The notes below the pieces were generated by a model. That model was not told the DNA's origin, did no database searches, and worked only from the letters and a program-made list of their open reading frames with translations. Of a DNA stretch of 64,000 nt, positions 7,542 through 25,394 are shown piece after piece. The stretch's first letter is position 1. Every line of letters begins with the position of its first letter. The DNA is from Phycisphaerales bacterium (GTDB lineage: Bacteria; Planctomycetota; Phycisphaerae; Phycisphaerales; UBA1924). The stretch lies in contig JALWOY010000102.1 of the NCBI GenBank assembly GCA_027083355.1, positions 1 through 64,000 of the forward strand, read 5' to 3'. The translations under genes were made by a program, and so were the position numbers.

Positions 7542-7703
7542 CGTACAGGACGCGGGGCGGCTCAGCAGAGCACGAGGTAGCAGATGAGCGAGAGGTACAG
7601 CACCCGCCGTTCGTTCGCCGTGATGGTCAGCAATCTCCTCAAGGCACACTCCTCTTTGGTTGTGCCCGGAGAGGTTCAACCCGCGTGCCGGGAGGGAGGC
7701 CCG

Positions 7704-9752
7704 ATGAACACGACCCCCGTTGTGCGCTCAAAAAAGGCGTTCGGCCGAGTTTTCGGACGCCGCGGGATCGGAGAGACCGCCGGTCGGTTGACCAGAATCA
7801 ACACCCGTTGTCGCGCCGCGGCATCATTGCTGGTGGTGCTGACGGCCCCCGTCCTTGCCGGATCGCAGCCCATCAGGCCCGAGACCCCGGCGGATGCACC
7901 GGTGCACACCCCCGCCGAGAGCGAAGCCCCCGCACCCGAACCGCGTGCTGTTCAAGCCGTCGGCCCGGATGCGACCGGGGGCGACCGGATCCCGCCGGAT
8001 CGGGCGCTCTCGGCCTTCGAGACTGTCCGCGGCTGGATCGATCAGGGCCGGGTGCCCGAGACCCCCGTGGCGGGACTTCCCCGGTCGTGGATCAGCACGG
8101 TCGTCCTCCGCCGAGGCGGGCAGATCATCGGGCGGGACACGTCGATCGCCAAGGAAGCCGGTGATACATCGATGACCCTCCAGCGAGCCGCGGCGCGCGC
8201 GCTGCGGCGGGCGATCGCCCGGATCGAGGGTGATCCGGACGCGTTGCGGTCCCAACGTGTCCGAGAGGGCCTGCTCGGGTCGCGGCTGACGATCGAGTTG
8301 ACACCCCACCGGGCGGTGCCGGTTCCCGAGGACGCGGGCCGGGCCGACCTGGACGATTGGGTGCGCCCCGGGGTGGAGGGGATGCTGGTGCGTCGCGGTG
8401 AGGATGTCGCGGCGAGCACGCCGGGGCTGATGCTCGCGTTGGGCCGATCTCCCTCGAACACGTTCGTGACGCTCGTTTCGCAGCTGGCCGATGATCCTTC
8501 CAAGGCGTTGCAGCCGGCCGACGAGCTGTTCGCGCAGGGGTTTTCGCTGTCACTGTTCAACACGGTCGAGGTCGCACAGATCGAGCCCGGCGCCGCACCG
8601 CTGATCCTGCACCGCGGCGGCCGGATCGCCCCGCCGGTGCGGAGCACCGCGGAACTGCGCACACTCGCGGACTCGATCGCGGCGAATCTGATCTCGCGGG
8701 CGTGGCCGGGGGTCGAGCGGCTGGGGCTGCGGGGGACGTATGACCCGCTGACGGGCCGATTCGACGACCGCCCCGCGTCGCCTTTCGATCAGGCGTTCGC
8801 GGCCGAGGCGTTGCTGCGGTATGCCGGGGCGCCCGGGATCGAGGCGGACCGGGCCGCGAAAGCCCGATCGGCGGCGCGTGCCGTCCTGGCGGCGCTCTCG
8901 GTGGTCGAGACCGCCGAGCGGGCGCCGTGGGGCGACCCGGTCTCCGCGTCGGCGTGCCTGAGCGCACTGAACCGGATCGACAAGCTCGAAATCGAGCGAT
9001 CCGACGAACTGCGCGCCCTGCGGGACCGTTGCCTCGAACAGGTCCGCGGCGCGTACGACCCGCAGAGCGGGTTCGACCCGATGATCCCCGCGGCCGCCCG
9101 CGGGGTGGTCGCGCGGGGCCTGATCGCGTCGGCGGGGCTTGAGCCTTGGGATCGCGACGCGCGGCTGCTGCTGGCGGGGGGCGCGATCCGGGCCGCATTC
9201 CGGGACGTGCCGCCTTCGCAGCTGCTCGGGTTGATGCCCGATCTGGGGTGGGCGGAGATCGAGCTGGCCCGGGAGACGGGCGTCCGGCCGCCCGCGGCCC
9301 CGGCGCTGATTTCGCTCCGCCGGAGCGTGCTGGCGCTCAAGCTGAAGCCCGATGACCTGCTCGCCGTGGACCGCGATCTGGCGGGCGGTTTGGTGTTGGA
9401 CACGGGGGGCAGCCCGCTCCCGACGTGGCAGACACTCCGCCCGCTCGGTCTGCTGGCGATGATGCTGGGGGACGAGCAGCTGACGCCGGGGACGATCGGC
9501 TCGGGCGAGGTGCCGCGGCAGCTGATCGAGGTGCTGGATATCTCACGCTTTTTGATTCAGCTGACGGCCGAGCCGCGGCTTGGGCACATGTACGCCGACC
9601 CGGCGGCGGCGCTCGGGGGCGTGCGGGTGTCGCTGTGGGACCAGCACATGCCGTTGACGGCGTCGGCGGCCGGGCTATCGGCGTTGTGCGAGACGCTCGA
9701 CAGCATGGAGCGGATCTCGAAGCGGTCCCCGCCGACCGCGGGTACGCCCTGA
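7704..9752 (+). CDS. Large exported protein of unknown function
   Basis: The product is about 682 residues. A basic N terminus leads to a hydrophobic segment (AAASLLVVLTAPVLAG, near residues 35-50) that looks like a signal peptide, followed by a proline/alanine-rich linker. The remainder is a soluble helical domain with an arginine-rich VVLRRGGQIIGR stretch near residue 130 and an alpha-helical body (many FDQAFAAEALLRYAG-like helices) that could be an alpha/alpha toroid, but I recognise no catalytic motif. I chose the ATG at 7704 because GGGAGG precedes it at good spacing; a frame start at 7584 has no ribosome site. It sits between rpsA and gyrA in the same direction. A planctomycete-specific periplasmic protein is the safest description. 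Confidence 0.7.
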   Translation: MNTTPVVRSKKAFGRVFGRRGIGETAGRLTRINTRCRAAASLLVVLTAPVLAGSQPIRPETPADAPVHTPAESEAPAPEPRAVQAVGPDATGGDRIPPDRALSAFETVRGWIDQGRVPETPVAGLPRSWISTVVLRRGGQIIGRDTSIAKEAGDTSMTLQRAAARALRRAIARIEGDPDALRSQRVREGLLGSRLTIELTPHRAVPVPEDAGRADLDDWVRPGVEGMLVRRGEDVAASTPGLMLALGRSPSNTFVTLVSQLADDPSKALQPADELFAQGFSLSLFNTVEVAQIEPGAAPLILHRGGRIAPPVRSTAELRTLADSIAANLISRAWPGVERLGLRGTYDPLTGRFDDRPASPFDQAFAAEALLRYAGAPGIEADRAAKARSAARAVLAALSVVETAERAPWGDPVSASACLSALNRIDKLEIERSDELRALRDRCLEQVRGAYDPQSGFDPMIPAAARGVVARGLIASAGLEPWDRDARLLLAGGAIRAAFRDVPPSQLLGLMPDLGWAEIELARETGVRPPAAPALISLRRSVLALKLKPDDLLAVDRDLAGGLVLDTGGSPLPTWQTLRPLGLLAMMLGDEQLTPGTIGSGEVPRQLIEVLDISRFLIQLTAEPRLGHMYADPAAALGGVRVSLWDQHMPLTASAAGLSALCETLDSMERISKRSPPTAGTP

Positions 9753-15062: not shown

Positions 15063-16730
15063 ATGCGAACCAGAAGCCTCACGGCGACGATACTGCTGAC
15101 GATTCCCGCCTTCGCTTCCGGGGCCGACCTTGTGATCGGCGACACCCCGGGCGAGGTGCTGGTGGTTGATTCGCCGCTCACGATCGACGGATCGCTGGTC
15201 GTCGTCAATGACGGGCGGGTGGAGCTCGGAACGAACGGCGTGCTGCGCGTGACCGACGAGATCCAGCTGGCCGGCGACGGGGCGCTGATCGGGACCGGCG
15301 GTCGGATCGAGTTCCCGCAGACCTACGACTATGAATCGCAGTTCCTCGTGTGGGACCGGGGCACGCTCGATCTCTCCGGGACGATCATCGACGGCGGGGG
15401 GCGTTCGTTCTCGGTCGCCGTGGGCGCGTCCGTCGTGTTCAACAACGTGGAGGTCGTCGACGGGTTCGCGACGTGGGCCATATTCGACGGCGGGGATGTC
15501 GCGCTCTCGGATGTCGTCAATACGGGCGAGTTCCTCCAGCTGGGCACCTCGTCGCTGTCGATGACGCGGTGCGACTTCGTGCTGTTCTGGCTGACACTGC
15601 CCGACGGGTCGGTGGTCGACACGGCGTTGCCGCCGCCGGGCGACGTGGCCTTGTTCGAGCTGAACGACCAGACGCCGTGGGCGAGCGGGATCCCCTACAC
15701 AACGCACATCGAGGACTGCACGCAGGTGATGTGGGCGGTGATGGCGCGGGACGGGGCGGATTCGACGATCCGCGATTCGCAGCTGCGCGTCGTGGGCAGC
15801 ATCTTCGAGCACGACGACGTCATCGAGATCGTGGGGCTGGCCAACGGGGCGGTGCTCGCCGACAGCACCTTCCAGTGGGGCCGACTCCGGCACCGGTTCG
15901 TGAACACGTCGGTGATGTCGTGGAACCTGTACGCGTGGCAGCAGACCGACCTGACCATCCGCACGAGCGTGGTGGGCGAGATCTTCTCCGAGGATCAGGC
16001 GATCGTCACCGTAGAACAATCGGTCTGCGATGGGTCCGGCGGGCACATCGAGACCTCCGGGCAGGGCCAGCTGTTCTTCCTCCATTCGCTGTGCCTGACG
16101 CAGTTGACCTCGCTGGACGACTCGCTCGTGGTCGTGGCGAGTTCCTCGTTCCTCAGCCCGATCATCGACGCGACGGACGGCGCGGTGATCGCGTTCTACA
16201 ACACGCCGACGTTCGGCGACCCGCGCGCCCACGACGCGGCGACGATCTTCGATGTCGCGATCGAGCCGCTGGAAGCGACGCGGGGCGACACGGTGCCCGT
16301 CATGGGCTCGGCCCGGGTGATCCGGGGGCCGGAAAGCCCGATCGACTTCGTGTCGTACGACGTGGCGTTCTCGGACGGGGCCGGCTGGAGCCTGATCGAC
16401 GGGCCGGTGGGCGAACCGATGCCGGGCGGTGTGCTGGCGGAGTGGGACACGGCCGCGGTCGCGCCGGGGCAATACCAGATCCGCGTCTCGATGACGCACT
16501 CGGGCGGGGGCGAGCCTGTCGAGGCCCAGGCCACCGCGACGATCGGCCTGCCCGATTGCCCGGCGGACCTGGCCGAGCCGTTCGGGGTGCTCGATCTGGT
16601 GGATATCGGTGTGTTCATCAACGGGTTCAAGGCGTCGGACCCGATCGCGGATCTGGCGGACCCGTTCGGCGTGTGGGATCTGGCGGATCTTTCCGCGTTC
16701 GTCGCGTCGTTCACGGCGGGCTGCAACTGA
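15063..16730 (+). CDS. Exported beta-helix-like protein with C-terminal GC-type dockerin pair
   Basis: The 555-residue product has a signal peptide (MRTRSLTATILLTIPAFASG, cut near residue 20). A long beta-rich body follows, whose repeated turns (ADLVIGD, LTIDGSLVVV, DLSGTIIDGG, VVFNNVEVVDG) suggest a right-handed parallel beta-helix, then an Ig-like segment. The C terminus (bases 16557-16727) holds two EF-hand-like repeats, AEPFGVLDLVDIGVFINGF and ADPFGVWDLADLSAFVASF, framed by cysteines. This tag is shared by the next five genes. AGGAGG lies eight bases before the ATG. Beta-helix domains often bind or cleave polysaccharides, but no catalytic motif is visible. I expect secretion and attachment at the cell surface or in a complex. 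Confidence 0.85.
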   Translation: MRTRSLTATILLTIPAFASGADLVIGDTPGEVLVVDSPLTIDGSLVVVNDGRVELGTNGVLRVTDEIQLAGDGALIGTGGRIEFPQTYDYESQFLVWDRGTLDLSGTIIDGGGRSFSVAVGASVVFNNVEVVDGFATWAIFDGGDVALSDVVNTGEFLQLGTSSLSMTRCDFVLFWLTLPDGSVVDTALPPPGDVALFELNDQTPWASGIPYTTHIEDCTQVMWAVMARDGADSTIRDSQLRVVGSIFEHDDVIEIVGLANGAVLADSTFQWGRLRHRFVNTSVMSWNLYAWQQTDLTIRTSVVGEIFSEDQAIVTVEQSVCDGSGGHIETSGQGQLFFLHSLCLTQLTSLDDSLVVVASSSFLSPIIDATDGAVIAFYNTPTFGDPRAHDAATIFDVAIEPLEATRGDTVPVMGSARVIRGPESPIDFVSYDVAFSDGAGWSLIDGPVGEPMPGGVLAEWDTAAVAPGQYQIRVSMTHSGGGEPVEAQATATIGLPDCPADLAEPFGVLDLVDIGVFINGFKASDPIADLADPFGVWDLADLSAFVASFTAGCN

Positions 16731-16731
16731 T

Positions 16732-16762
16732 CCGAGGCTCCGAGGACGCAGCCTCGGCGTCT
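16732..16762. repeat. Short hairpin repeat of the CCGACGCT family, variant
   Basis: CCGAGGCT (16732-16739) pairs with AGCCTCGG and is followed by CGTC, the same layout as hairpins at 13979, 25779 and 44589. The stem bases differ, but pairing is kept. Confidence 0.45.
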
Positions 16763-16796
16763 CACAACCCGGTTCGTGTACGGGGACTCCGATTCT

Positions 16797-16831
16797 GAGT
16801 GAGTCTTCGAGCAAAGGCTCGGATTCACTTT
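16797..16831 (+). terminator. Weak terminator-like hairpin after the beta-helix gene
   Basis: AGTGA and CGAGC arms pair with GCTCG and TCACT around an AAAG loop, with a small bulge, followed by TTTGTG. It is plausible as the end of the 15063 transcript, although the T run is short. Confidence 0.35.
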
Positions 16832-16857
16832 GTGCCCGGACCGCTCTGCTGTACAAT
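16830..16857 (+). promoter_or_regulatory. Candidate sigma-70-type promoter of the YVTN gene
   Basis: TTGTGC (16830-16835) and TACAAT (16852-16857) are separated by 16 bases and lie 43 bases ahead of the start codon. The -10 matches five of six consensus bases, the -35 only three. Confidence 0.45.
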
Positions 16858-16899
16858 CGGTGCCCCGCGGAAAGTCCGCGAGCCGAGAGAGAGGTCGTC

Positions 16900-19407
16900 A
16901 TGCGCACACAGGTCTTCGTTCTCGCCGTTGCTGTCGCCGCCTCGGCGGTGTTCGCCGCCGACACGCCCAATCCGGACGGCGATCCTGATTTCATCACCCG
17001 TGTCGAGGTCGCGTCGCAGGTGCCCGCGCCCGTGTTCAACCGCGCCCCCCGCGGGGCCGGCGCGGGCGTGTTCGTGTTCACGGGGAGCGACCCGGAGGGC
17101 GACGCGCCGAGCGATGTGGTTTTCACGCCGGACGGGCAGACGATCATCATCGCGCACCGCGAGAGCGAGAACCTGATTCTGTGGGACGCCGACACGCGGG
17201 CGTTCGTGGGCGAGGTGCCGCTGTCGGGGCTGGCCCAGGCCGTCGATGTGACGCCGGACGGGTCGACCGCGGTGGTCGCGTGCCTCGGCAACAACAGCGT
17301 CTCGATCGTCGATCTGGGCACGCTGACCGAGACGGCGGTGATCCCCGTCGGGCAGGTGCCGGGGTCGGTGTCGATCAGCCCGGACGGGACGCGGGCGGCG
17401 GTGCACGCGGCGTTCGACGGCACGACGTACATCATCGACATCGCCTCGGCGAGCGTCGAACGCACCATTCCCGGCATCGACACCTGGTCGCGTTTCTCGT
17501 TTTCCGGCGAGGCCCCCGCGACGAGCGTGCAGTACGGCGGACCCGAGTTCATCGACAACACGCGGTTGATCAACGCCGATTTCGGCAACGACGAGGTGGA
17601 GTTCATCAACGCCGCGACGGGCGCGGTGCACCGCGTCGCCGTCGCCGACAGCCCGTTCGGCGTCGGCCTCTCGGGCGACGGGACAACGGCGGTCGTGGTG
17701 CACAGCTTCGCCGCCCGGACACTGACGGTCTTCGATCTTGCGAGCGAGACCATCAGCAGCACCTTCCCGACCACGTTCGACATGTCGGGCCCGGTCGCGG
17801 TGAACACGGACGCGTCGCGCGCGGTCGTGGCGATCCAGAACGCGGCCCAGACGATCGACCTGGCCACGGGGGTGCCCGTGGGCTTCTCGATCAACACCGC
17901 GAGCAACAACGACCTGCTCCCCACGTTCGACGGGCAGTACGCCGTCAGCATCGGTTATCGAGGTTCGATCATCGACTTCGCCACCGCCTCGCTCGTGACC
18001 AACACGAACAACGCGGTGTCGTGCGAGATCGGCGCGGTCTCGCCGGTGGATTATCGCGCGGCGATGTGCTCGACCACGTTCGGCGACGACCTCGTGGTCG
18101 TCAACACCAACGGCGGCGGGAGCGCGGGGCTCGAAGCATTCCAACTCTCCGGGCCGGCACCCGAGGGCGACCGCTGCCGGACGGCCGCGATCAGCCCCGA
18201 CGGCTCGACCGCGGTGGGCATCTCGATCTTCAGCGACACCGCAACGGTCATCGACGCGGCGACCGGGGCCGTCACGGGCTTCGCCCCCCTCGGCCAGCGC
18301 CCCAGCGGTGTGGCGATCACGCCCGACGGGACGCGGGCCGTCGTGGCCAACCTCGATTCGAACTTCGCCAGCGTGATCGATCTGGCTTCCGCGTCGACCA
18401 CCAACATCAACATCTCCCGTCGGGCCGGCGCGGTCGAGATCAGCCCGGACGGTCAATACGCCTACCTCCCCGTGGTGGCCGACGGCGACGGCGTCTGGCG
18501 GATCAACCTCGACACGATGAGCGTCGAGGGCCCGAAACTCATCACCGGGAACATGGGCGGCATCGGCTACGCCTTCAGCCAGGTGAGCGGGATCGACCTG
18601 AGCCCCGACGGGTCGAGGCTCGCGGTGGCCGGCACGTTCGACAATCTCGTCACCATCATCGACACCGCCTCGTGGACGGTCGATCGCAACGTGCCCGTGG
18701 GTGACTTCCCCACGACTGTCCGATACAACGCCGACGGCACGCGGCTGTACGTCTCGATCAAGAACACCGACCGCGTGCAGGTCATCGACACGTCCATCGC
18801 CACACCGGTGGTGATCGCGTCCATCCCCGTCGGCGACCAGCCGTGGCAGCTCGTGCCCGATACCGCCAACAACCGGCTGTATGTCAACAACTTCGGCGAC
18901 ACCGCGATCGGTGTGATCGACCTGACCACCAACACGCAGACGTCGGTCATCCCGCTGGTGAACGTCTGCACGGGATTGCGGCTCGACGCGGGCTCGGGGC
19001 TGCTCTACGCGGCCCAGTCGGACTCGATCACGACGCTGGGCGGGGCCGCGGGCTATGCGCACACCGAGAGCGGTGCGATCGCGGTGATCGACACGTCCAT
19101 CCCGGCGATCGTCGACACGATCCCGCTGGACGTCGCCCCGTCGGCGATGGCGATGGACGCGGCGGGGACGCGGTTCGTGCTGCCCGCGCCGCAGGGCGAC
19201 GGAGCGGTGCTGGTGTCGTTGTTATCGGGCTGCAACGCGGCGGACCTCGCCGAGCCGTTCGGGGCGCTTGATCTGGCGGACATCTCGGCGTTCATCGTCG
19301 CGTTCACGGGCCACGACCCGGCCGCGGACATCGCCCCGCCCGCGGGCGTGTGGGATCTGGCGGACCTTCAGGCGTTCGTCATCGCATTCACGGGCGGGTG
19401 TCCATAA
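16900..19407 (+). CDS. Exported YVTN-type beta-propeller protein with C-terminal GC-type dockerin pair
   Basis: The product is about 835 residues. A signal peptide (MRTQVFVLAVAVAASAVFAA) precedes many propeller blades with the YVTN/surface-layer pattern: TPDGSTAVVACLGNNSVSIV, SPDGTRAAV, TPDGTRAVVANLDSNFASVI, NRLYVNNFGDTAIGVIDL. Such propellers form rigid binding surfaces on exported proteins; no enzyme motif is seen. The tail (19231-19404) carries two GC-type repeats, AEPFGALDLADISAFIVAF and APPAGVWDLADLQAFVIAF, between cysteines. GAGAGAGG just ahead of the ATG at 16900 fixes the start; an open frame extends upstream to 16609 but is out of context. It is the second of six consecutive genes with this tag and has its own leader and likely promoter. 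Confidence 0.88.
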   Translation: MRTQVFVLAVAVAASAVFAADTPNPDGDPDFITRVEVASQVPAPVFNRAPRGAGAGVFVFTGSDPEGDAPSDVVFTPDGQTIIIAHRESENLILWDADTRAFVGEVPLSGLAQAVDVTPDGSTAVVACLGNNSVSIVDLGTLTETAVIPVGQVPGSVSISPDGTRAAVHAAFDGTTYIIDIASASVERTIPGIDTWSRFSFSGEAPATSVQYGGPEFIDNTRLINADFGNDEVEFINAATGAVHRVAVADSPFGVGLSGDGTTAVVVHSFAARTLTVFDLASETISSTFPTTFDMSGPVAVNTDASRAVVAIQNAAQTIDLATGVPVGFSINTASNNDLLPTFDGQYAVSIGYRGSIIDFATASLVTNTNNAVSCEIGAVSPVDYRAAMCSTTFGDDLVVVNTNGGGSAGLEAFQLSGPAPEGDRCRTAAISPDGSTAVGISIFSDTATVIDAATGAVTGFAPLGQRPSGVAITPDGTRAVVANLDSNFASVIDLASASTTNINISRRAGAVEISPDGQYAYLPVVADGDGVWRINLDTMSVEGPKLITGNMGGIGYAFSQVSGIDLSPDGSRLAVAGTFDNLVTIIDTASWTVDRNVPVGDFPTTVRYNADGTRLYVSIKNTDRVQVIDTSIATPVVIASIPVGDQPWQLVPDTANNRLYVNNFGDTAIGVIDLTTNTQTSVIPLVNVCTGLRLDAGSGLLYAAQSDSITTLGGAAGYAHTESGAIAVIDTSIPAIVDTIPLDVAPSAMAMDAAGTRFVLPAPQGDGAVLVSLLSGCNAADLAEPFGALDLADISAFIVAFTGHDPAADIAPPAGVWDLADLQAFVIAFTGGCP

Positions 19408-19612
19408 CGGGTTCCCGGTTCCCATAAACCCCGCCTGAGTGGTGTTTCCTCGGGGGGTGTTGCATGGGGATATTGCCTAATTTTCGCGTATCCATGTGAC
19501 TTCTTCCAAAGAGTGTCGCTTTGTCTTGACCCGGTATCCCCAGTCTGAGAGGATGCGGGTTGAGGATCGCCCGAGGGGGGCGACTCACAACACGCGTGCA
19601 GGAGAAGGAAAA

Positions 19613-22045
19613 ATGAGAACAGAGAAATTCGCGCGGCGCTGCTGCGTCGTCGCCATCCCCACCGCCGCGTCGCTCGCGTTCGCGGCCGGTGAGGTCATGC
19701 CCGCGCCGAACGCCACGGTGACCGCCACGAAGACGAGCAACGCCGTCCCGGTCTTCCGGATGGACGCGTTCCAGGCGGACGACATTGTCGTGCCGCCGAG
19801 CCACCCGCCGATCGACCAGATCCCGCCGCTGCCGATGCCGAACCCGGAATGGGATATCCCGGACAATCTGGGCGGGCCGGGCAACGCGCTGTTTTATGAC
19901 CAGACCACGGGCCAGATCACGGAGATCCCGATCCAGCCGTCGAACAGCGGCCTGACGGGCGAGGTGGGCGGCTCGTCCTACGTCGGCGCCGACGGGTTCG
20001 ATTCGCTCGCGGACCTCTACGGCCCGCGCGGGTTCGGCACCATGTCCGCGCTCACCGACGCCGAGATCTCGACGTTCCCGTTCCGCATGAACGTCAAACT
20101 CGTCAATGAATACATCGACGCGGGCACCGGCGCCGCGTCGTATTTCGTCTGTTCCGGCGGCATGCAGGACGCCGAGGTGGTGCTCACCGCCGGCCACTGC
20201 GTCTACAAGCGCGACAACGACTCGACCGGGAGCGACTTCGGCTTCGCCGACCGCGTCTGGATCTATCCCGGGTGGGACGGCAACGGCCTAACCCTCGGCA
20301 ACCCCGATGTCCTCCAGTATTACGGCTGGGGCGTCAGCAGCGGCCTCGGCACCTTCACCGGATGGTCTGTCGACGGCAACTTCGACTGGGACATGGGCCT
20401 CGTCCGCATCACCCGCGCCGTCGGCATGCTCACCGGCTGGTACGGCTGGGCGTGGGGCGGCGACTGCACCACCAACTTCTACAACAACCCGTCGTACCCG
20501 GCCGAACCCTGCGGCTCCGGCAGTCTGCACACCGGGCGCGACATGTACAACTGGAACGGCAACTTCGACAGCTGCCCCGGCAACCAGATGCACATCAACA
20601 CCAGCCCGGGCTGCTTCACCGCCCTGTGGGGCGGGATGAGCGGGTCCAACGCCTACTACTTCGTGGGCAACACCCGGGTGGCCCACGGCGTGGCGTCGAA
20701 CTCCAATCGCACCACCAGCGGCAACTACGCCAAGATGTGGGAGTCGTTCAAGAACTACATGGAGGACACGTTCAAACCGAGCGCACGGGGCTCGGCGCTC
20801 GACCTCCAGTCGCTCCAGACCCGCTACGCCGAGAGCGTCGTGACCGCGGGCGACCAGCTCACCGGCGGCACCGCCCAGATACCCAACCCGACCAACAACG
20901 ACCCGGGCAGCGACACATACGGCATCACGGTCTACCTCTCGACGAACAACAACATCTCCACCTCCGACACGAACATCGGGGCGGGGTCGTACACATGGGA
21001 CTACGCCCCGATGCAGAACCTGACGCTGAACATGTTCAACGTCACCGTCCCCATCGGCACGCCCAGCGGGACCTACTGGGTCGGTGTCTACCTCAATGAC
21101 GGCCAGGACGCCGACAATTCCAACAACGACCCCGATCTGTGGGACGCTCACCAGATCACCGTCAACGGCGTGGCCGACCCCGTGGCCAACTCCGCCACCG
21201 CCCCCAGCGGAACCTTCTTTCACGGCGATACCATCGGCGTGGGGTACAACGTCACCAACCAGGGCGGCGACCCGTCCAACGCCGTCACCGTCGATGTCTA
21301 CGCCTCGACCAACACCATCATCTCGACCTTCGACACCCTGCTCGGCTCGTTCAACATCGGCACCTTCAGCGGCCAGCAGACCAAGAGCGGCACGCTGAAC
21401 GTCAATCTCCCGTCCACACTGATGGGCGATTACTACATCGGGTACATCATCTCCGCCAGCGACGATGTCAACAACGGCAACAACACCGCCGTCGACGCCA
21501 CGGCGCTCACGGTCGACGGACGGGCCGATCTGGAGGCCGTGGACTTCACCAGCCTCGAATCCGTGGTCAGCCTCGGAAGCGGGCTCGATGTCCAGTTCAC
21601 CGTCGTGAACACCGGCACCATCGCATCGGGGGTCTATGACGTCGATGTGTATGCCTCGACAAACACCATCATCTCGACCTTCGACACCCTGCTCGGCACG
21701 TTCAACCGCCCGAGCCTCGGCGTCGGCGGTACCTCCACCGTCAATGGCACGGTCACCGTCCCGTTGTTCATGGCCCCGGGCAACTACTTCATCGGCATGA
21801 TCGTCGAAGGCGGCGCCAACGAGAACAACCTGAGCGACAACTCCGCGTTCGACCCCGACACCGTGCAGATCGTCGACTGCATCGTCGACTTCAACAACGA
21901 CGGCCTGCTCGACCTTGCCGACATCGTTGCCTTCGTCAACGCGTTCCAGGGCCACATCCCGGCGGCCGACCTCAACAACGACGGTGTGTGGGATCTGTCC
22001 GACATCGTCGCCTTCGTCAACGCGTTCATGGCCGGCTGCCCGTAA
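19613..22045 (+). CDS. Exported trypsin-like serine protease with CARDB repeats and canonical dockerin pair
   Basis: The product is about 810 residues: a signal peptide, a V8/trypsin-like protease domain near residues 150-390, three CARDB-like adhesive modules near 400-745, and a dockerin pair. The catalytic residues can be read: histidine in VLTAGHC, aspartate in DWDMGLV, serine in GGMSGSN. The dockerin repeats, DFNNDGLLDLADIVAFVNAF and DLNNDGVWDLSDIVAFVNAF (21878-22042), keep the full DxNxDG calcium loop, unlike the GC-type repeats of its neighbours. GGAGAAGGA precedes the ATG at 19613. I expect an extracellular peptidase targeted by its dockerin to a scaffold or to the surface; its substrate is unknown. 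Two CARDB modules share a 66-bp near-identical stretch, a sign of recent duplication or conversion. Confidence 0.88.
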   Translation: MRTEKFARRCCVVAIPTAASLAFAAGEVMPAPNATVTATKTSNAVPVFRMDAFQADDIVVPPSHPPIDQIPPLPMPNPEWDIPDNLGGPGNALFYDQTTGQITEIPIQPSNSGLTGEVGGSSYVGADGFDSLADLYGPRGFGTMSALTDAEISTFPFRMNVKLVNEYIDAGTGAASYFVCSGGMQDAEVVLTAGHCVYKRDNDSTGSDFGFADRVWIYPGWDGNGLTLGNPDVLQYYGWGVSSGLGTFTGWSVDGNFDWDMGLVRITRAVGMLTGWYGWAWGGDCTTNFYNNPSYPAEPCGSGSLHTGRDMYNWNGNFDSCPGNQMHINTSPGCFTALWGGMSGSNAYYFVGNTRVAHGVASNSNRTTSGNYAKMWESFKNYMEDTFKPSARGSALDLQSLQTRYAESVVTAGDQLTGGTAQIPNPTNNDPGSDTYGITVYLSTNNNISTSDTNIGAGSYTWDYAPMQNLTLNMFNVTVPIGTPSGTYWVGVYLNDGQDADNSNNDPDLWDAHQITVNGVADPVANSATAPSGTFFHGDTIGVGYNVTNQGGDPSNAVTVDVYASTNTIISTFDTLLGSFNIGTFSGQQTKSGTLNVNLPSTLMGDYYIGYIISASDDVNNGNNTAVDATALTVDGRADLEAVDFTSLESVVSLGSGLDVQFTVVNTGTIASGVYDVDVYASTNTIISTFDTLLGTFNRPSLGVGGTSTVNGTVTVPLFMAPGNYFIGMIVEGGANENNLSDNSAFDPDTVQIVDCIVDFNNDGLLDLADIVAFVNAFQGHIPAADLNNDGVWDLSDIVAFVNAFMAGCP
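21290..21355 (+). repeat. 66-bp intragenic direct repeat, copy 1
   Basis: This segment of the second CARDB module matches 21641-21706 at 62 of 66 positions. Three of the four differences are silent and one gives Ser instead of Thr. The neighbouring sequence of the two modules is much less alike. Confidence 0.85.
21641..21706 (+). repeat. 66-bp intragenic direct repeat, copy 2
   Basis: This is the second copy of the segment at 21290-21355, in the third CARDB module. Both encode a strand pair reading VDVYASTNTIISTFDTLLG. Confidence 0.85.
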
Positions 22046-22074
22046 GCAGACCAGCCGATCGAATCGAATTCGCA

Positions 22075-22097
22075 GCCGCCCTCCGGGGCGGCTTTTT
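22075..22097 (+). terminator. Rho-independent terminator of the protease gene
   Basis: A perfect 6-bp stem (GCCGCC 22075-22080 with GGCGGC 22087-22092) is followed by TTTTT. It lies 30 bases past the stop codon. Confidence 0.8.
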
Positions 22098-22352
22098 CAT
22101 GCCCGGGAATATCTCACGCGGAATCGGTGTTCCGCCGCGTGGAGGATCGCGTGAGACAAAGAGGAGTTCATGTCATGCACGGGTTGATTTTTCTCGTGTC
22201 GGCGCTGGCGACGACACAGACATCCGCCGGTGTACCCCGACGCCCGGACCGCCCGCTCGGCACAGGGGCCGCGGGGTGGGAACTTGCCGCGAAGAGTTGA
22301 CCATGCCCCCCCCGAGAATCGCACGAAACACACCCGAATAAAGGAAAAAGAG
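22098..22352 (+). other. Intergenic leader region of the lamin-tail gene
   Basis: About 255 bases between the protease terminator and the next gene. The promoter and leader of 22353-23150 must lie here, but I find no clear -35/-10 pair. Small open frames are present without ribosome sites. Confidence 0.35.
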
Positions 22353-23150
22353 ATGATTCGCCCCACGATCGCAATCGCTTCACTTACACTCGCCGCGGGT
22401 TTGGCCAACGCGGGGGTTGCCGCCAACGAACGGATGGTGCAGTACGCCTCGGTCGACCTCACGAACGCGGTCGTCGAGCTGCACAACTACGGCGATTCCA
22501 CGATGCCGCTCGACGGCTGGCGAATCTGCACGCACAACTCGGTCATGCAGTTCCGCTACTCGGCCGCATCGGGCCTCAACGGCGTGACGCTCCAGCCCGG
22601 CGAATCCCTGTTTATCTACTGGAACGATGACGCACCGGCCGACCCACACAACATCAACCGCAGCGATATCGGCGGCTTCTTCGCCCTGCCGCTCGACCAG
22701 AACGCCTTCTCGCTCGAACTCTTCTGGCCGAACGGCGGTCTGCTCAGCTTCGGCTCGATCGACGACATGGTCGACCACATGCAGTGGTCCGTGGGCGGCG
22801 TCAGCGACGCCGGCGCCGACGCCCGTTCGCAGCAGGCCGTAAACGCCGGGCTATGGACCGACGCCTCGGCGTGGATCTCCACCGCGGCCGACAGCGTGAA
22901 TATCGCGCTCGTCCCCAACGGCGGGGTCCTGCAGGGACCGGGCGATTTCACCGTCGAAGGCCCGCCCGCGGGCTGCAACGCCGCCGATATCGCCGAACCG
23001 TTCGGCGTGCTCGACCTGGCCGACATCGGCATCTTCGTCTCGGCCTTCATCGCGGGCGACAGCGCGGCGGACGTCGCCGAACCGTTCGGTGTGCTGGATC
23101 TTGCCGACATTTCCGTGTTTGTTTCCTCGTTCACCGCCGGGTGCCCCTGA
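22353..23150 (+). CDS. Exported lamin-tail-domain-like protein with GC-type dockerin pair
   Basis: The 265-residue product starts with a signal peptide (MIRPTIAIASLTLAAGLANA). The mature part opens with AVVELHNYGDSTMPLDGWRI and later LQPGESLFIYW, which fits a lamin-tail (LTD) domain, an Ig-like beta-sandwich found on many exported bacterial proteins and often joined to nucleases or adhesins. No nuclease domain is present. The tail (22974-23147) carries two nearly identical repeats, AEPFGVLDLADIGIFVSAF and AEPFGVLDLADISVFVSSF, within a cysteine pair. AAGGA lies eight bases before the ATG at 22353. It is the fourth gene of the dockerin series; a role in surface attachment or matrix binding is inference. 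Confidence 0.82.
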   Translation: MIRPTIAIASLTLAAGLANAGVAANERMVQYASVDLTNAVVELHNYGDSTMPLDGWRICTHNSVMQFRYSAASGLNGVTLQPGESLFIYWNDDAPADPHNINRSDIGGFFALPLDQNAFSLELFWPNGGLLSFGSIDDMVDHMQWSVGGVSDAGADARSQQAVNAGLWTDASAWISTAADSVNIALVPNGGVLQGPGDFTVEGPPAGCNAADIAEPFGVLDLADIGIFVSAFIAGDSAADVAEPFGVLDLADISVFVSSFTAGCP

Positions 23151-23217
23151 GCCTCTTCAGAAAACACGCGCACACATGAATGGCCCCGCGGCCTTCATGC
23201 TTCTCCCCCAACGCGGC

Positions 23218-23245
23218 TTGAAAAAAGCCGAGGTTGCTGTATGCT
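23218..23245 (+). promoter_or_regulatory. Candidate promoter of the fifth dockerin gene
   Basis: TTGAAA (23218-23223) and TATGCT (23240-23245) are 16 bases apart, about 70 bases ahead of the start codon at 23317. The match is five and four of six consensus bases. A small CGGCTT-GAAA-AAGCCG hairpin overlaps the -35. Confidence 0.45.
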
Positions 23246-23316
23246 CTCTACATACGAACGCTCTGTTCGTCGTGGGAACGAAACAGTGAATTCCTGTAGA
23301 CCCTGAAGGAGAGACC

Positions 23317-24138
23317 ATGATCCGCACATCCATCGCGTGCCTGCTCGCCATCGCCGGGCTCGCCTCGGCCGAAACCGTCGTGCTCACCATCGACAACACC
23401 CAGTCCAACATCGACATCGACGCGACGCTCTCGACACCCGTCGGCGACGACACGGACACCGCCTTCACCCCCGTCAGCGGGACCATCGAGATCGAGCTCG
23501 ACGACTACGGCACCCCCACCGCCATCACGCTGCACGACTTCCTCATCGTGCTCGACAACGACATCACCATGAACTTCGACTACGGCTTCGCCGGCAGCGC
23601 CACCTCGACGCTGAACAACGCGATGGCGATGTACGCCACACCCGGCACGCCCACCGGGCCGGTCCCCGTCGCGGGAGCTTCGTTCTCCTTCCCGAACGTG
23701 CCCAGCGATCTCGCCGGGACCTATACCTACGACTACTCCTTCTTCCTCGTCGGCTCGGACAGCGGCTCGGGCGACCTCTCCGAGTTCGGCACCTCCAACA
23801 CCCCCATCGCGGGCGATGTCATCAGCGACGGCTCGACCGTCACCCTCTCCGGCACACTCGACATCAACACCACGCAGACCGTCATCGACGGCGTCGCCGA
23901 CCTCACCCTCGTCGGCACCGCCACCCTCATCGCCACGGGCGATGTGCCCCCGCCCGCGGGCTGCAACGCAGCCGACATCGCCGAGCCGTTCGGCGTCCTC
24001 GATCTGGCCGACATCCAGGCCTTCGTCAACGCGTTCCTCGCCCAGGACCCGGCCGCGGACATCGCCCCACCGACGGGCGTGTTCGACCTGGCCGACCTCC
24101 AGGCGTTCGTCACCGCGTTCTCGGCCGGCTGCCCCTGA
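23317..24138 (+). CDS. Small exported beta-rich protein with GC-type dockerin pair
   Basis: The 273-residue product has a signal peptide (MIRTSIACLLAIAGLASA) and a beta-strand-rich domain of about 190 residues with no recognised catalytic motif. A proline spacer (GDVPPPAG) leads to the dockerin pair (23962-24135): AEPFGVLDLADIQAFVNAF and APPTGVFDLADLQAFVTAF between cysteines. AAGGAGAG lies just before the ATG. The next gene encodes a protein of the same layout (TVVLTID versus TVLTLDL at the mature start, then IEIELDDYGTPTAITLHD versus ITIETDDVSAPTMLILHD), so the two are paralogues from a tandem duplication. Function is unknown beyond probable export. Confidence 0.82.
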   Translation: MIRTSIACLLAIAGLASAETVVLTIDNTQSNIDIDATLSTPVGDDTDTAFTPVSGTIEIELDDYGTPTAITLHDFLIVLDNDITMNFDYGFAGSATSTLNNAMAMYATPGTPTGPVPVAGASFSFPNVPSDLAGTYTYDYSFFLVGSDSGSGDLSEFGTSNTPIAGDVISDGSTVTLSGTLDINTTQTVIDGVADLTLVGTATLIATGDVPPPAGCNAADIAEPFGVLDLADIQAFVNAFLAQDPAADIAPPTGVFDLADLQAFVTAFSAGCP

Positions 24139-24194
24139 ACGTCCGCCGGCGTGCGAAGCCGCCCATAACGACCCGTGAGCGTCCGAAAACGGTC

Positions 24195-24239
24195 GCCGGG
24201 GGTGTTTCTGGTGCCCCACGCGCACCCGGGCGTTTTCAT
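24195..24239 (+). terminator. Possible terminator after the fifth dockerin gene
   Basis: CGCC and GGTG arms can pair with CACC and GGGCG around a long loop, followed by TTTTC. The stem has internal mismatches, so this is a weak call. Confidence 0.35.
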
Positions 24240-24338
24240 GCGCTGAAAAAGACAATGCGATGTGAGCAAATCGTGCTACACTCGTCTATGGAGGGTACGC
24301 CGATCTGTCACGGCGTCCATAAGCAGAGAGGTTCAGAC

Positions 24339-25394
24339 ATGCGCAGAAAGTCCATCGCGGCGATCTCCCTCGCCGCCGCCGCTTCGTTCGCGTCGGCCCA
24401 GAATACCGTGCTGACACTCGACCTCGTGCCCCCGTCCGACGGCGACGCCTCGGCCGAGTATTTCACCTTCCTCGGCACCGACAACGACAGCGGGGCCGCG
24501 GATAGTGCGATGGGCACCATCACCATCGAGACCGACGACGTCTCGGCCCCGACGATGCTCATCCTGCACGATCTCTCGATCACGCTCGACCCGTCGGTCG
24601 CCCTCGCCGGCACGCTCGACGCCGGCCAGTTCCTCGGCAGCGGCACGTGGAGCCTCAACCTCGACGGCGTGATGTACCCGCTCAGCGAGCCGCCGATCGA
24701 TGGGGACTCCGTCGACGCGAGGGGCTTCGGCGGCTCCGGGGTGTTCGAGTTCCCCGATCTCCCGCTCACGCTGCTCGGAGACGCGGCCACGTCCTACGAC
24801 TTCATCGGCCTCGCCCCCGTCACGATCGACCCCCCGATCGACCTGTCCACGCAGGACAACGCCGACGCGATGCTGACCAATGTCGTCGTTTCCTCCGACG
24901 GCGAGACCGTCACCCTCACCGGCACGCTCACCGTCATGCAGTACACCATCCCGTGGGAGCCGGCCCTCGTCGAGACCCGTCTCGGCACCACGATCAACAT
25001 CACCGCCCAGGCCCCCGACCCCACCATGGGCTCGAACGTCTGCTCGCGGGTGGACATCGCCGAGCCCTGCGGCCTGCTCGACCTGGCCGACATCCTCGCG
25101 TTCGTCAACGCGTTCGCGAACCAGGACCCCATCGCCGACATGGACAACAGCGGGCTGTTCGACCTCGCCGACGTGCTCTCGTTCGTCACCCTCTTCCAGA
25201 AGGGCGGGTGCTTCGGGGACGCCAGGGGCAAGGGCGGCTTCGGCGGGTATGACTGCTATTCCATCGGCATGAACTTCGACGAGGGAGACGCCACGTATGC
25301 CCTCGGCGAACACGGCACCCTCACCGCCGGCATGGCCGTCGGGGGCGCCTGCCTCATGCTCGGCTTCTCCGCGATGCGACGCCGCATCGGCTGA
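24339..25394 (+). CDS. Exported protein with hybrid dockerin pair and C-terminal membrane anchor
   Basis: The product is about 351 residues with a signal peptide (MRRKSIAAISLAAAASFASA) and a beta-rich domain paralogous to the preceding gene product. Its dockerin pair (25041-25211) is a hybrid: the first repeat is GC-type (DIAEPCGLLDLADI) and the second keeps a calcium-like loop (DMDNSGLFDLADV). Unlike the other five, the pair is not terminal. About 60 residues follow, with a glycine-rich linker and a hydrophobic helix (AGMAVGGACLMLGFSAM) ending in RRRIG, like a membrane anchor or sorting signal. GAGAGG upstream supports the ATG at 24339. This could be the membrane-held member of the set. A frame open since 23337 belongs to no gene upstream. 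Confidence 0.82.
   Translation: MRRKSIAAISLAAAASFASAQNTVLTLDLVPPSDGDASAEYFTFLGTDNDSGAADSAMGTITIETDDVSAPTMLILHDLSITLDPSVALAGTLDAGQFLGSGTWSLNLDGVMYPLSEPPIDGDSVDARGFGGSGVFEFPDLPLTLLGDAATSYDFIGLAPVTIDPPIDLSTQDNADAMLTNVVVSSDGETVTLTGTLTVMQYTIPWEPALVETRLGTTINITAQAPDPTMGSNVCSRVDIAEPCGLLDLADILAFVNAFANQDPIADMDNSGLFDLADVLSFVTLFQKGGCFGDARGKGGFGGYDCYSIGMNFDEGDATYALGEHGTLTAGMAVGGACLMLGFSAMRRRIG

Follow-up and report, generated by a model that had tools for sequence, protein, structure and literature searches.

Why should six successive genes, whose products otherwise differ, all carry the same small module? The genes lie on the plus strand at 15063-25394 of the window, the stretch of 64,000 nucleotides analysed here from a contig of a Phycisphaerales bacterium (JALWOY010000102.1), and each encodes a signal peptide together with a GC-type dockerin, a domain defined by the NCBIfam model NF041540 (dockerin_GC; curated cut-off 29 bits). 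All six modules score above that cut-off (34.5-44.0 bits) and consist of two EF-hand-like repeats flanked by two cysteines, as a preliminary description of the locus had read from the letters, and the bodies in front of them differ from one another except in the paralogous proteins 5 and 6. The C-terminal position that the description gave to the module applies to five of the six proteins, in which Gly-Cys stands beside the stop; protein 6 is the exception, its module being followed by a further 60 residues. The explanation that we favour, and consider somewhat probable, is that the module serves for docking and is not cleaved off: through it, a single partner specific to the lineage, and not a recognisable cohesin, would retain diverse exported proteins at the cell surface.

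A tag on more than a hundred exported proteins

The window belongs to a metagenome-assembled genome (MAG) of 3.4 Mb in 234 contigs, 91.6% complete. The genome-wide search that the preliminary description had proposed returns 113 matches to NF041540 in this genome and none in 14 control genomes; at about 110 proteins in 3.4 Mb, the tag marks roughly 4% of the genome's genes, the gene total being an estimate. Among the 111 tagged open reading frames (ORFs) analysed at the DNA level, 102 are credited with a signal peptide by a simple score, the remainder being mostly cut at contig or locus ends, and 99 have a cysteine at the stop or at most three residues from it, 77 of these as Cys-Pro. Tagged genes adjoin one another at less than 4 kb in 34 pairs, compared with about 14 expected at random placement (~2.5-fold). 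Because the family occurs 113 times in the genome, six in a row represents only moderate clustering, and the six genes of the window are one cluster within a genome-wide system. The tag is plentiful in every genome sampled from the same family (f1), and the named relatives that a public scan lists are MAGs of Phycisphaerales, UBA7812 and UBA1926 among them.

The bodies that precede the tag are varied. Pfam places 95 tagged proteins mainly among FG-GAP and Kelch propellers, subtilases, reprolysin-like and M14 peptidases and MauG-like peroxidases, with few glycosidases. NCBIfam assigns tagged bodies to choice-of-anchor families B, D, J and Q, and also to families otherwise known with type IX secretion system (T9SS), LPXTG or MYXO-CTERM ends. 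Judged by these sequence families, the cargo appears to suit a general surface tag, not a cellulosome.

Each repeat of the tag is a loop followed by a helix. Of the 178 loops parsed in the window's genome, 76 are canonical 12-residue EF-hand loops, the DxNxDGxxDxxD kind of type I dockerins, and 102 have a 13-residue AxPxG form, D-x-A-x-P-x-G-x-x-D-x-x-D, which keeps D1, D10 and D13 and has lost the middle ligands; both kinds are found in both repeat positions. The 13-residue form is seen in the window at 16557-16727, 19231-19404, 22974-23147 and 23962-24135 and elsewhere in L256, L257 and L140, and similar loops are present in several other f1 genera. Members of genus g6 (G119; L281, L033) carry the same terminal tag with much longer loops such as DIANTDGDPIPDGVIDNGD, another flavour, and one tagged protein (L063:5866-6837) has three repeats, not two. 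The N- and C-terminal cysteines co-occur, both being present in 98 of the 111 tags, neither in seven and only one in six. Because of this co-occurrence, we propose that the ends of the tag are probably tied by a disulfide between the first and the near-terminal cysteine; an extra pair in three modules (CPCD near the start and a cysteine in the last helix; L054:7072-7236, L069:1450-1614 and L078:2545-2709) suggests a second disulfide.

AlphaFold models of a module with two variant loops and of one with two canonical loops reach pLDDT 96.4 and 96.5, respectively. The best solved match of the canonical-loop model is a dual-binding dockerin of Clostridium cellulolyticum (Foldseek probability 0.96), and all five listed VIA rows for the variant-loop model are dockerins. 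Typical tags stop at the folded module, with no signature motif, transmembrane segment or basic tail behind it, and the predicted fold reaches the last residues; judging from these models, cleavage of the tag as a simple sorting signal, one of two outcomes on which the docking idea was to fail, is unlikely. Obligatory C-terminal processing is further disfavoured by one protein (L054:8686-9657) that carries its GC-type dockerin near the N-terminus, directly after the signal peptide and with about 230 residues behind.

A signature of the genome rather than of the body

Tags of one genome resemble one another and differ from those of other genomes. The signature analysis covered tags from six genomes, those of the other genomes being the best-scoring matches to one model or profile. 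Each genome has a flavour of its own: LDLxDIxAFVxAF in the window's genome, LTIFDFLAFQNLF in G032, LDFFDVQAFLxAF in G189, VNFADLNxVLSxFG in G090, VDFADLSxVLxNFG in G113 and VDAADLAALLSAWG in G084. Identity at tag positions 7-20 is 0.59-0.78 within genomes and 0.32 between them, and leave-one-out assignment places 173 of 176 tags in the correct genome. The same holds between repeats, as repeat 1 matches repeat 2 of the same tag at 0.643, that of another tag of the same genome at 0.647 and that of other genomes at 0.314. Genome information is highest at tag positions 10 and 14; the recognition positions predicted for type II dockerins include 10 and 17 (PMC5590126).

Moreover, the tag follows the genome, not the body. 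Two bodies were traced, an endonuclease/phosphatase-like one (G000:C66, in the window's genome) fully across the order and a subtilase in four genomes. Orthologues of the former occur through the order, and their tree groups families f1, f4 and f2/f3 with support of at least 98 (f1 clade 100/100). The f1 orthologues, which have 42-56% identity to the query where the two align, each end in their own genome's flavour, those of f4 end in the f4 dockerin flavour, and those of f2/f3 have dockerin-like repeats and then a PEP-CTERM end (3/3). Between genomes, the tags on these orthologous bodies are 0.317 identical, compared with 0.310 for random tags, and their identity to unrelated tags from the same genome is 0.623.

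Recent gene conversion or copying does not explain this shared signature, because codon identity among the tags of the window's genome is near expectation (0.615 vs 0.585 expected) and DNA identity exceeds 85% in only 1 of 4371 pairs. These figures bear on a partnerless alternative, which we regard as distinctly unlikely, in which the module is a passive stabilising end-cap spread by duplication, and per-genome likeness is descent from one ancestral tag per lineage. The tag is indeed a small, stable domain, probably closed by a disulfide, and tags do cluster in tandem, with a few near-identical pairs in other genomes (L180/L181, L231/L232), yet synonymous sites show almost no recent copying while helix positions are alike across more than 100 proteins. 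Orthologous bodies, for their part, keep no body-specific tag sequence, and nothing would require such agreement of a cap that has no partner.

One shared partner is favoured instead, because about 100 unlinked loci agree, in both repeats and on orthologous bodies alike, and within a genome the signature is uniform enough to make a single reader the simplest explanation. Whether that reader would retain its cargo or export it is the point on which the main rival turns. Here the folded, disulfide-bonded module would be an export signal read by a genome-specific outer-membrane secretion machine, type II-like or other, after which the protein would be released or stay. Substrate recognition in type II secretion is species-specific, and the near-strict C-terminal position, the single signature per genome and the diversity of the cargo fit such a machine as well as they fit a receptor. 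We nevertheless rate secretion as unlikely, since a signature common to both repeats fits a symmetric docking face better than a secretion signal, and the protein at L054:8686-9657 has its body behind the module.

Cohesins, PEP-CTERM anchors and the case for docking

The classical answer would be docking to cohesins, as in cellulosomes or in the 'planctosome' proposed in Nemodlikiaceae, freshwater Planctomycetes (PMC6461901). Beyond that proposal and the dockerin-like fold, this alternative can draw on two neighbouring cohesin-like/HYR/canonical dockerin proteins in the window's genome (G000:C229; L051:3654-9650), which are followed by a protein of 241 amino acids (aa) with a GC-type dockerin. 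We consider it very unlikely already. In a class-wide sample of 198 genomes, 27 have PF00963 cohesins; among the 11 genomes sampled from f1, the family with the densest tag, two have matches, both under the cut-off, namely the window's genome and G096. A class-specific cohesin profile, which recovers the C229 cassette and four positive-control genomes that supplied or resembled its rows, finds, among 18 further tag-rich genomes of the order, one weak match in G102 and no recognisable cohesin in the remaining 17. The two C229 proteins are the only cohesin-like proteins of the window's genome, and both carry a different, non-GC dockerin; Pfam Dockerin_1 (PF00404) matches the C229 protein and finds nothing in the six window proteins at E up to 0.1.

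Two candidates at C229 were considered and rejected. The cohesin/HYR part resembles the planctosome adaptor (PMC6461901), and as a general receptor it fails because none of the ten further f1 genomes in the sample contains its body. The 241-aa protein, despite a cohesin-like look, has no Pfam match, and its body occurs in only 5 of 61 family genomes. By PF00963 and the class-specific profile together, a cohesin receptor is rejected for nearly all tag-rich genomes; the co-occurring cohesin-like domain that the preliminary description proposed to look for thus did not emerge as conserved in this search of recognisable cohesins, and, few bodies being carbohydrate-active, its term 'cellulosome-like' is not supported.

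The distribution of the tag is opposite to that of PEP-CTERM. Within the order, none of the 19 genomes carrying nine tags or more reaches 20 PEP-CTERM matches, nine of them having zero, and 9 of the 15 genomes with fewer than nine tags have at least 33 among the matches listed (Fisher p = 1e-4, which overstates independence, as few family-level events are involved). The tagged families f1 and f4 have few or no PEP-CTERM proteins and their sister families mostly show the reverse, with three genomes (G066, G155 and G167) having neither. Exosortase genes are kept nearly everywhere in the order, including f4 genomes without a PEP-CTERM match; eight of these (G084, G102, G137, G155, G161, G177, G182 and G197) have 1-3 exosortase genes and zero PEP-CTERM matches, leaving the enzyme there without a visible substrate. 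The idea that PEP-CTERM proteins are the usual carriers of dockerin-like repeats was discarded, as these occur in 1 of 19 sampled, though in all three f2/f3 orthologues of the body traced above.

Docking or surface retention through a partner encoded elsewhere, as first suggested for the module, remains the best fit to a tag that has a dockerin-like fold, occurs on over 100 exported proteins with unrelated bodies, shows one signature per genome in both repeats and is replaced by PEP-CTERM on the same bodies in sister families. Once exported by Sec, the tag would leave the cytoplasm and fold into two EF-hand-like hairpins of the dockerin type, with the disulfide between the first and near-terminal cysteines joining its ends, and would stay uncleaved. 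A single partner, specific to the genome and located at the cell surface, would bind either repeat non-covalently and would hold tens to about two hundred unrelated exported proteins. In the tagged families, the tag would largely have taken the place that PEP-CTERM anchors hold in the sister families.

Several points weigh against surface docking. The tags of the other genomes are not random samples, although best-scoring selection should make genomes look more alike, not less, because one model or profile chose them. The signature covers probable core positions (13 and 16) besides probable exposed ones, and old, slow tag duplication with protein-level constraint could be part of the per-genome likeness. 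Matches to dockerin folds are weak in absolute terms (Z <4, best Foldseek E 0.36); low absolute scores are usual for modules of 55-58 residues. What the computations show is the presence, number and terminal position of the tag, its paired cysteines, a predicted dockerin-like fold, the signature of each genome, tag turnover on orthologous bodies, the lack of recognisable cohesins and the opposition to PEP-CTERM; calcium binding, formation of the disulfide, surface location, lack of cleavage and the partner, both that it exists and that it is single, are features that we infer. The opposition to PEP-CTERM rests on few family-level events, and the retained exosortase implies that PEP-CTERM-type processing was not lost outright. 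Lastly, no receptor of the tag was found in a search that covered recognisable cohesins, not receptors of other sequence; as the window's genome is a MAG (91.6% complete), the receptor gene may fall in the missing part.

The six genes and their place among known systems

The features of the locus are collected in Table 1. Of the body types first described, the YVTN propeller, the CARDB stretches and the paralogy of proteins 5 and 6 (37% identity) hold; the trypsin-like assignment of protein 3 is based on its two visible motifs, without a Pfam peptidase match, the lamin-tail resemblance falls under the cut-off and the beta-helix has no Pfam counterpart. The gaps between the genes are 169, 205, 307 and 166 nt, then 200 nt before the ATG at 24339, and a scan for sigma-70 promoters and terminators gave no signal above shuffles. 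Gaps of 166-307 nt are compatible with separate leaders and independent cargo units, as had been suggested. The tail of protein 6 reads as coding, with a G+C content at third codon positions (GC3) of 0.90, and resembles a PEP-CTERM-type anchor in its hydrophobic stretch and basic end, but has no PEP motif; protein 6 may retain a remnant of the dockerin-then-PEP-CTERM arrangement of f2/f3 or have regained it. Upstream in the window, an ORF of 722 aa (7584-9752) without a Pfam match lies immediately before gyrA.

Table 1. Tagged genes and their dockerin modules in the window
Feature	Position	Strand	Remarks
Tagged protein 1, 555 aa	15063..16730	+	signal peptide; no Pfam match, beta-helix-like by eye
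GC-type dockerin, protein 1	16557..16727	+	NF041540 39.6 bits; two 13-residue AxPxG-type loops; terminus ..GCN stop
Tagged protein 2, 835 aa	16900..19407	+	YVTN beta-propeller, TIGR02276 125 bits, above cut-off
GC-type dockerin, protein 2	19231..19404	+	NF041540 34.5 bits; terminus ..GCP stop
Tagged protein 3, 810 aa	19613..22045	+	two CARDB stretches (PF07705); trypsin-like motifs TAGHC/GMSGS
GC-type dockerin, protein 3	21878..22042	+	NF041540 44.0 bits; two canonical 12-residue EF-hand loops; terminus ..GCP stop; model pLDDT 96.5
Tagged protein 4, 265 aa	22353..23150	+	lamin-tail-like, under Pfam cut-off (27.2 vs 34.3)
GC-type dockerin, protein 4	22974..23147	+	NF041540 40.9 bits; both loops 13-residue AxPxG type; model pLDDT 96.4
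Tagged protein 5, 273 aa	23317..24138	+	beta-rich body; paralogue of protein 6
GC-type dockerin, protein 5	23962..24135	+	NF041540 42.7 bits; terminus ..GCP stop
Tagged protein 6, 351 aa	24339..25394	+	start from ribosome-binding site AGAGAGG and signal peptide; paralogue of protein 5
GC-type dockerin, protein 6	25041..25211	+	NF041540 36.6 bits; non-terminal
60-residue tail, protein 6	25212..25391	+	hydrophobic stretch, then RRRIG

The six modules are members of NF041540 above its curated cut-off, and that model names the domain only; a search of one literature library found no paper on 'GC-type dockerin' and none on dockerin together with PEP-CTERM. New here are the absence of recognisable cohesins from nearly all other tag-rich genomes, the opposition to PEP-CTERM, the genome-specific signature and the finding that the tag follows the genome over the body. 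More tentatively, it is possible that Phycisphaerales have a cell-surface docking system not yet described, in which GC-type dockerins mark the cargo and which has displaced PEP-CTERM anchoring; its partner would be unrelated in sequence to cohesins and would co-evolve with the tags, of which a genome has tens to about two hundred. For a domain that was named but unexplained, the uniform signature makes the receptor question testable: the partner would be expected to change from genus to genus as tag positions 10, 13, 14, 16 and 17 do, and to occur in families f1 and f4, whereas f2 and f3 would lack it or have a different one.

Three known systems invite comparison. The planctosome likewise places Phycisphaerae dockerins outside cellulose degradation, and a similar cohesin/HYR/dockerin protein is found at C229; it differs in that the cassette is sporadic and its dockerins are non-GC, and such a cassette cannot serve the tag-rich relatives because they lack it. 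PEP-CTERM/exosortase and GlyGly-CTERM/rhombosortase (PMC1569441, PMC3237569) share with the GC-type tag a many-to-one C-terminal label on unrelated exported proteins and homologous bodies with different tags. The GC-type tag, in contrast, is a folded, soluble domain lacking the motif, helix and basic end of those signals, which argues that it is not a substrate of such membrane proteases. Finally, the tag differs from the cellulosomal dockerins of Clostridium thermocellum and C. cellulolyticum in being near-strictly terminal, in its probable terminal disulfide and 13-residue AxPxG loops, and in a system with few cellulases and, in nearly all genomes, no recognisable cohesins or scaffoldins. 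The likeness lies in two EF-hand-like repeats, a similar predicted fold, symmetric repeats and a species-specific signature, cellulosomal dockerins showing the same kind of species specificity (PMC12484212, PMC5590126), and a new orthogonal set of docking pairs would serve protein assembly.

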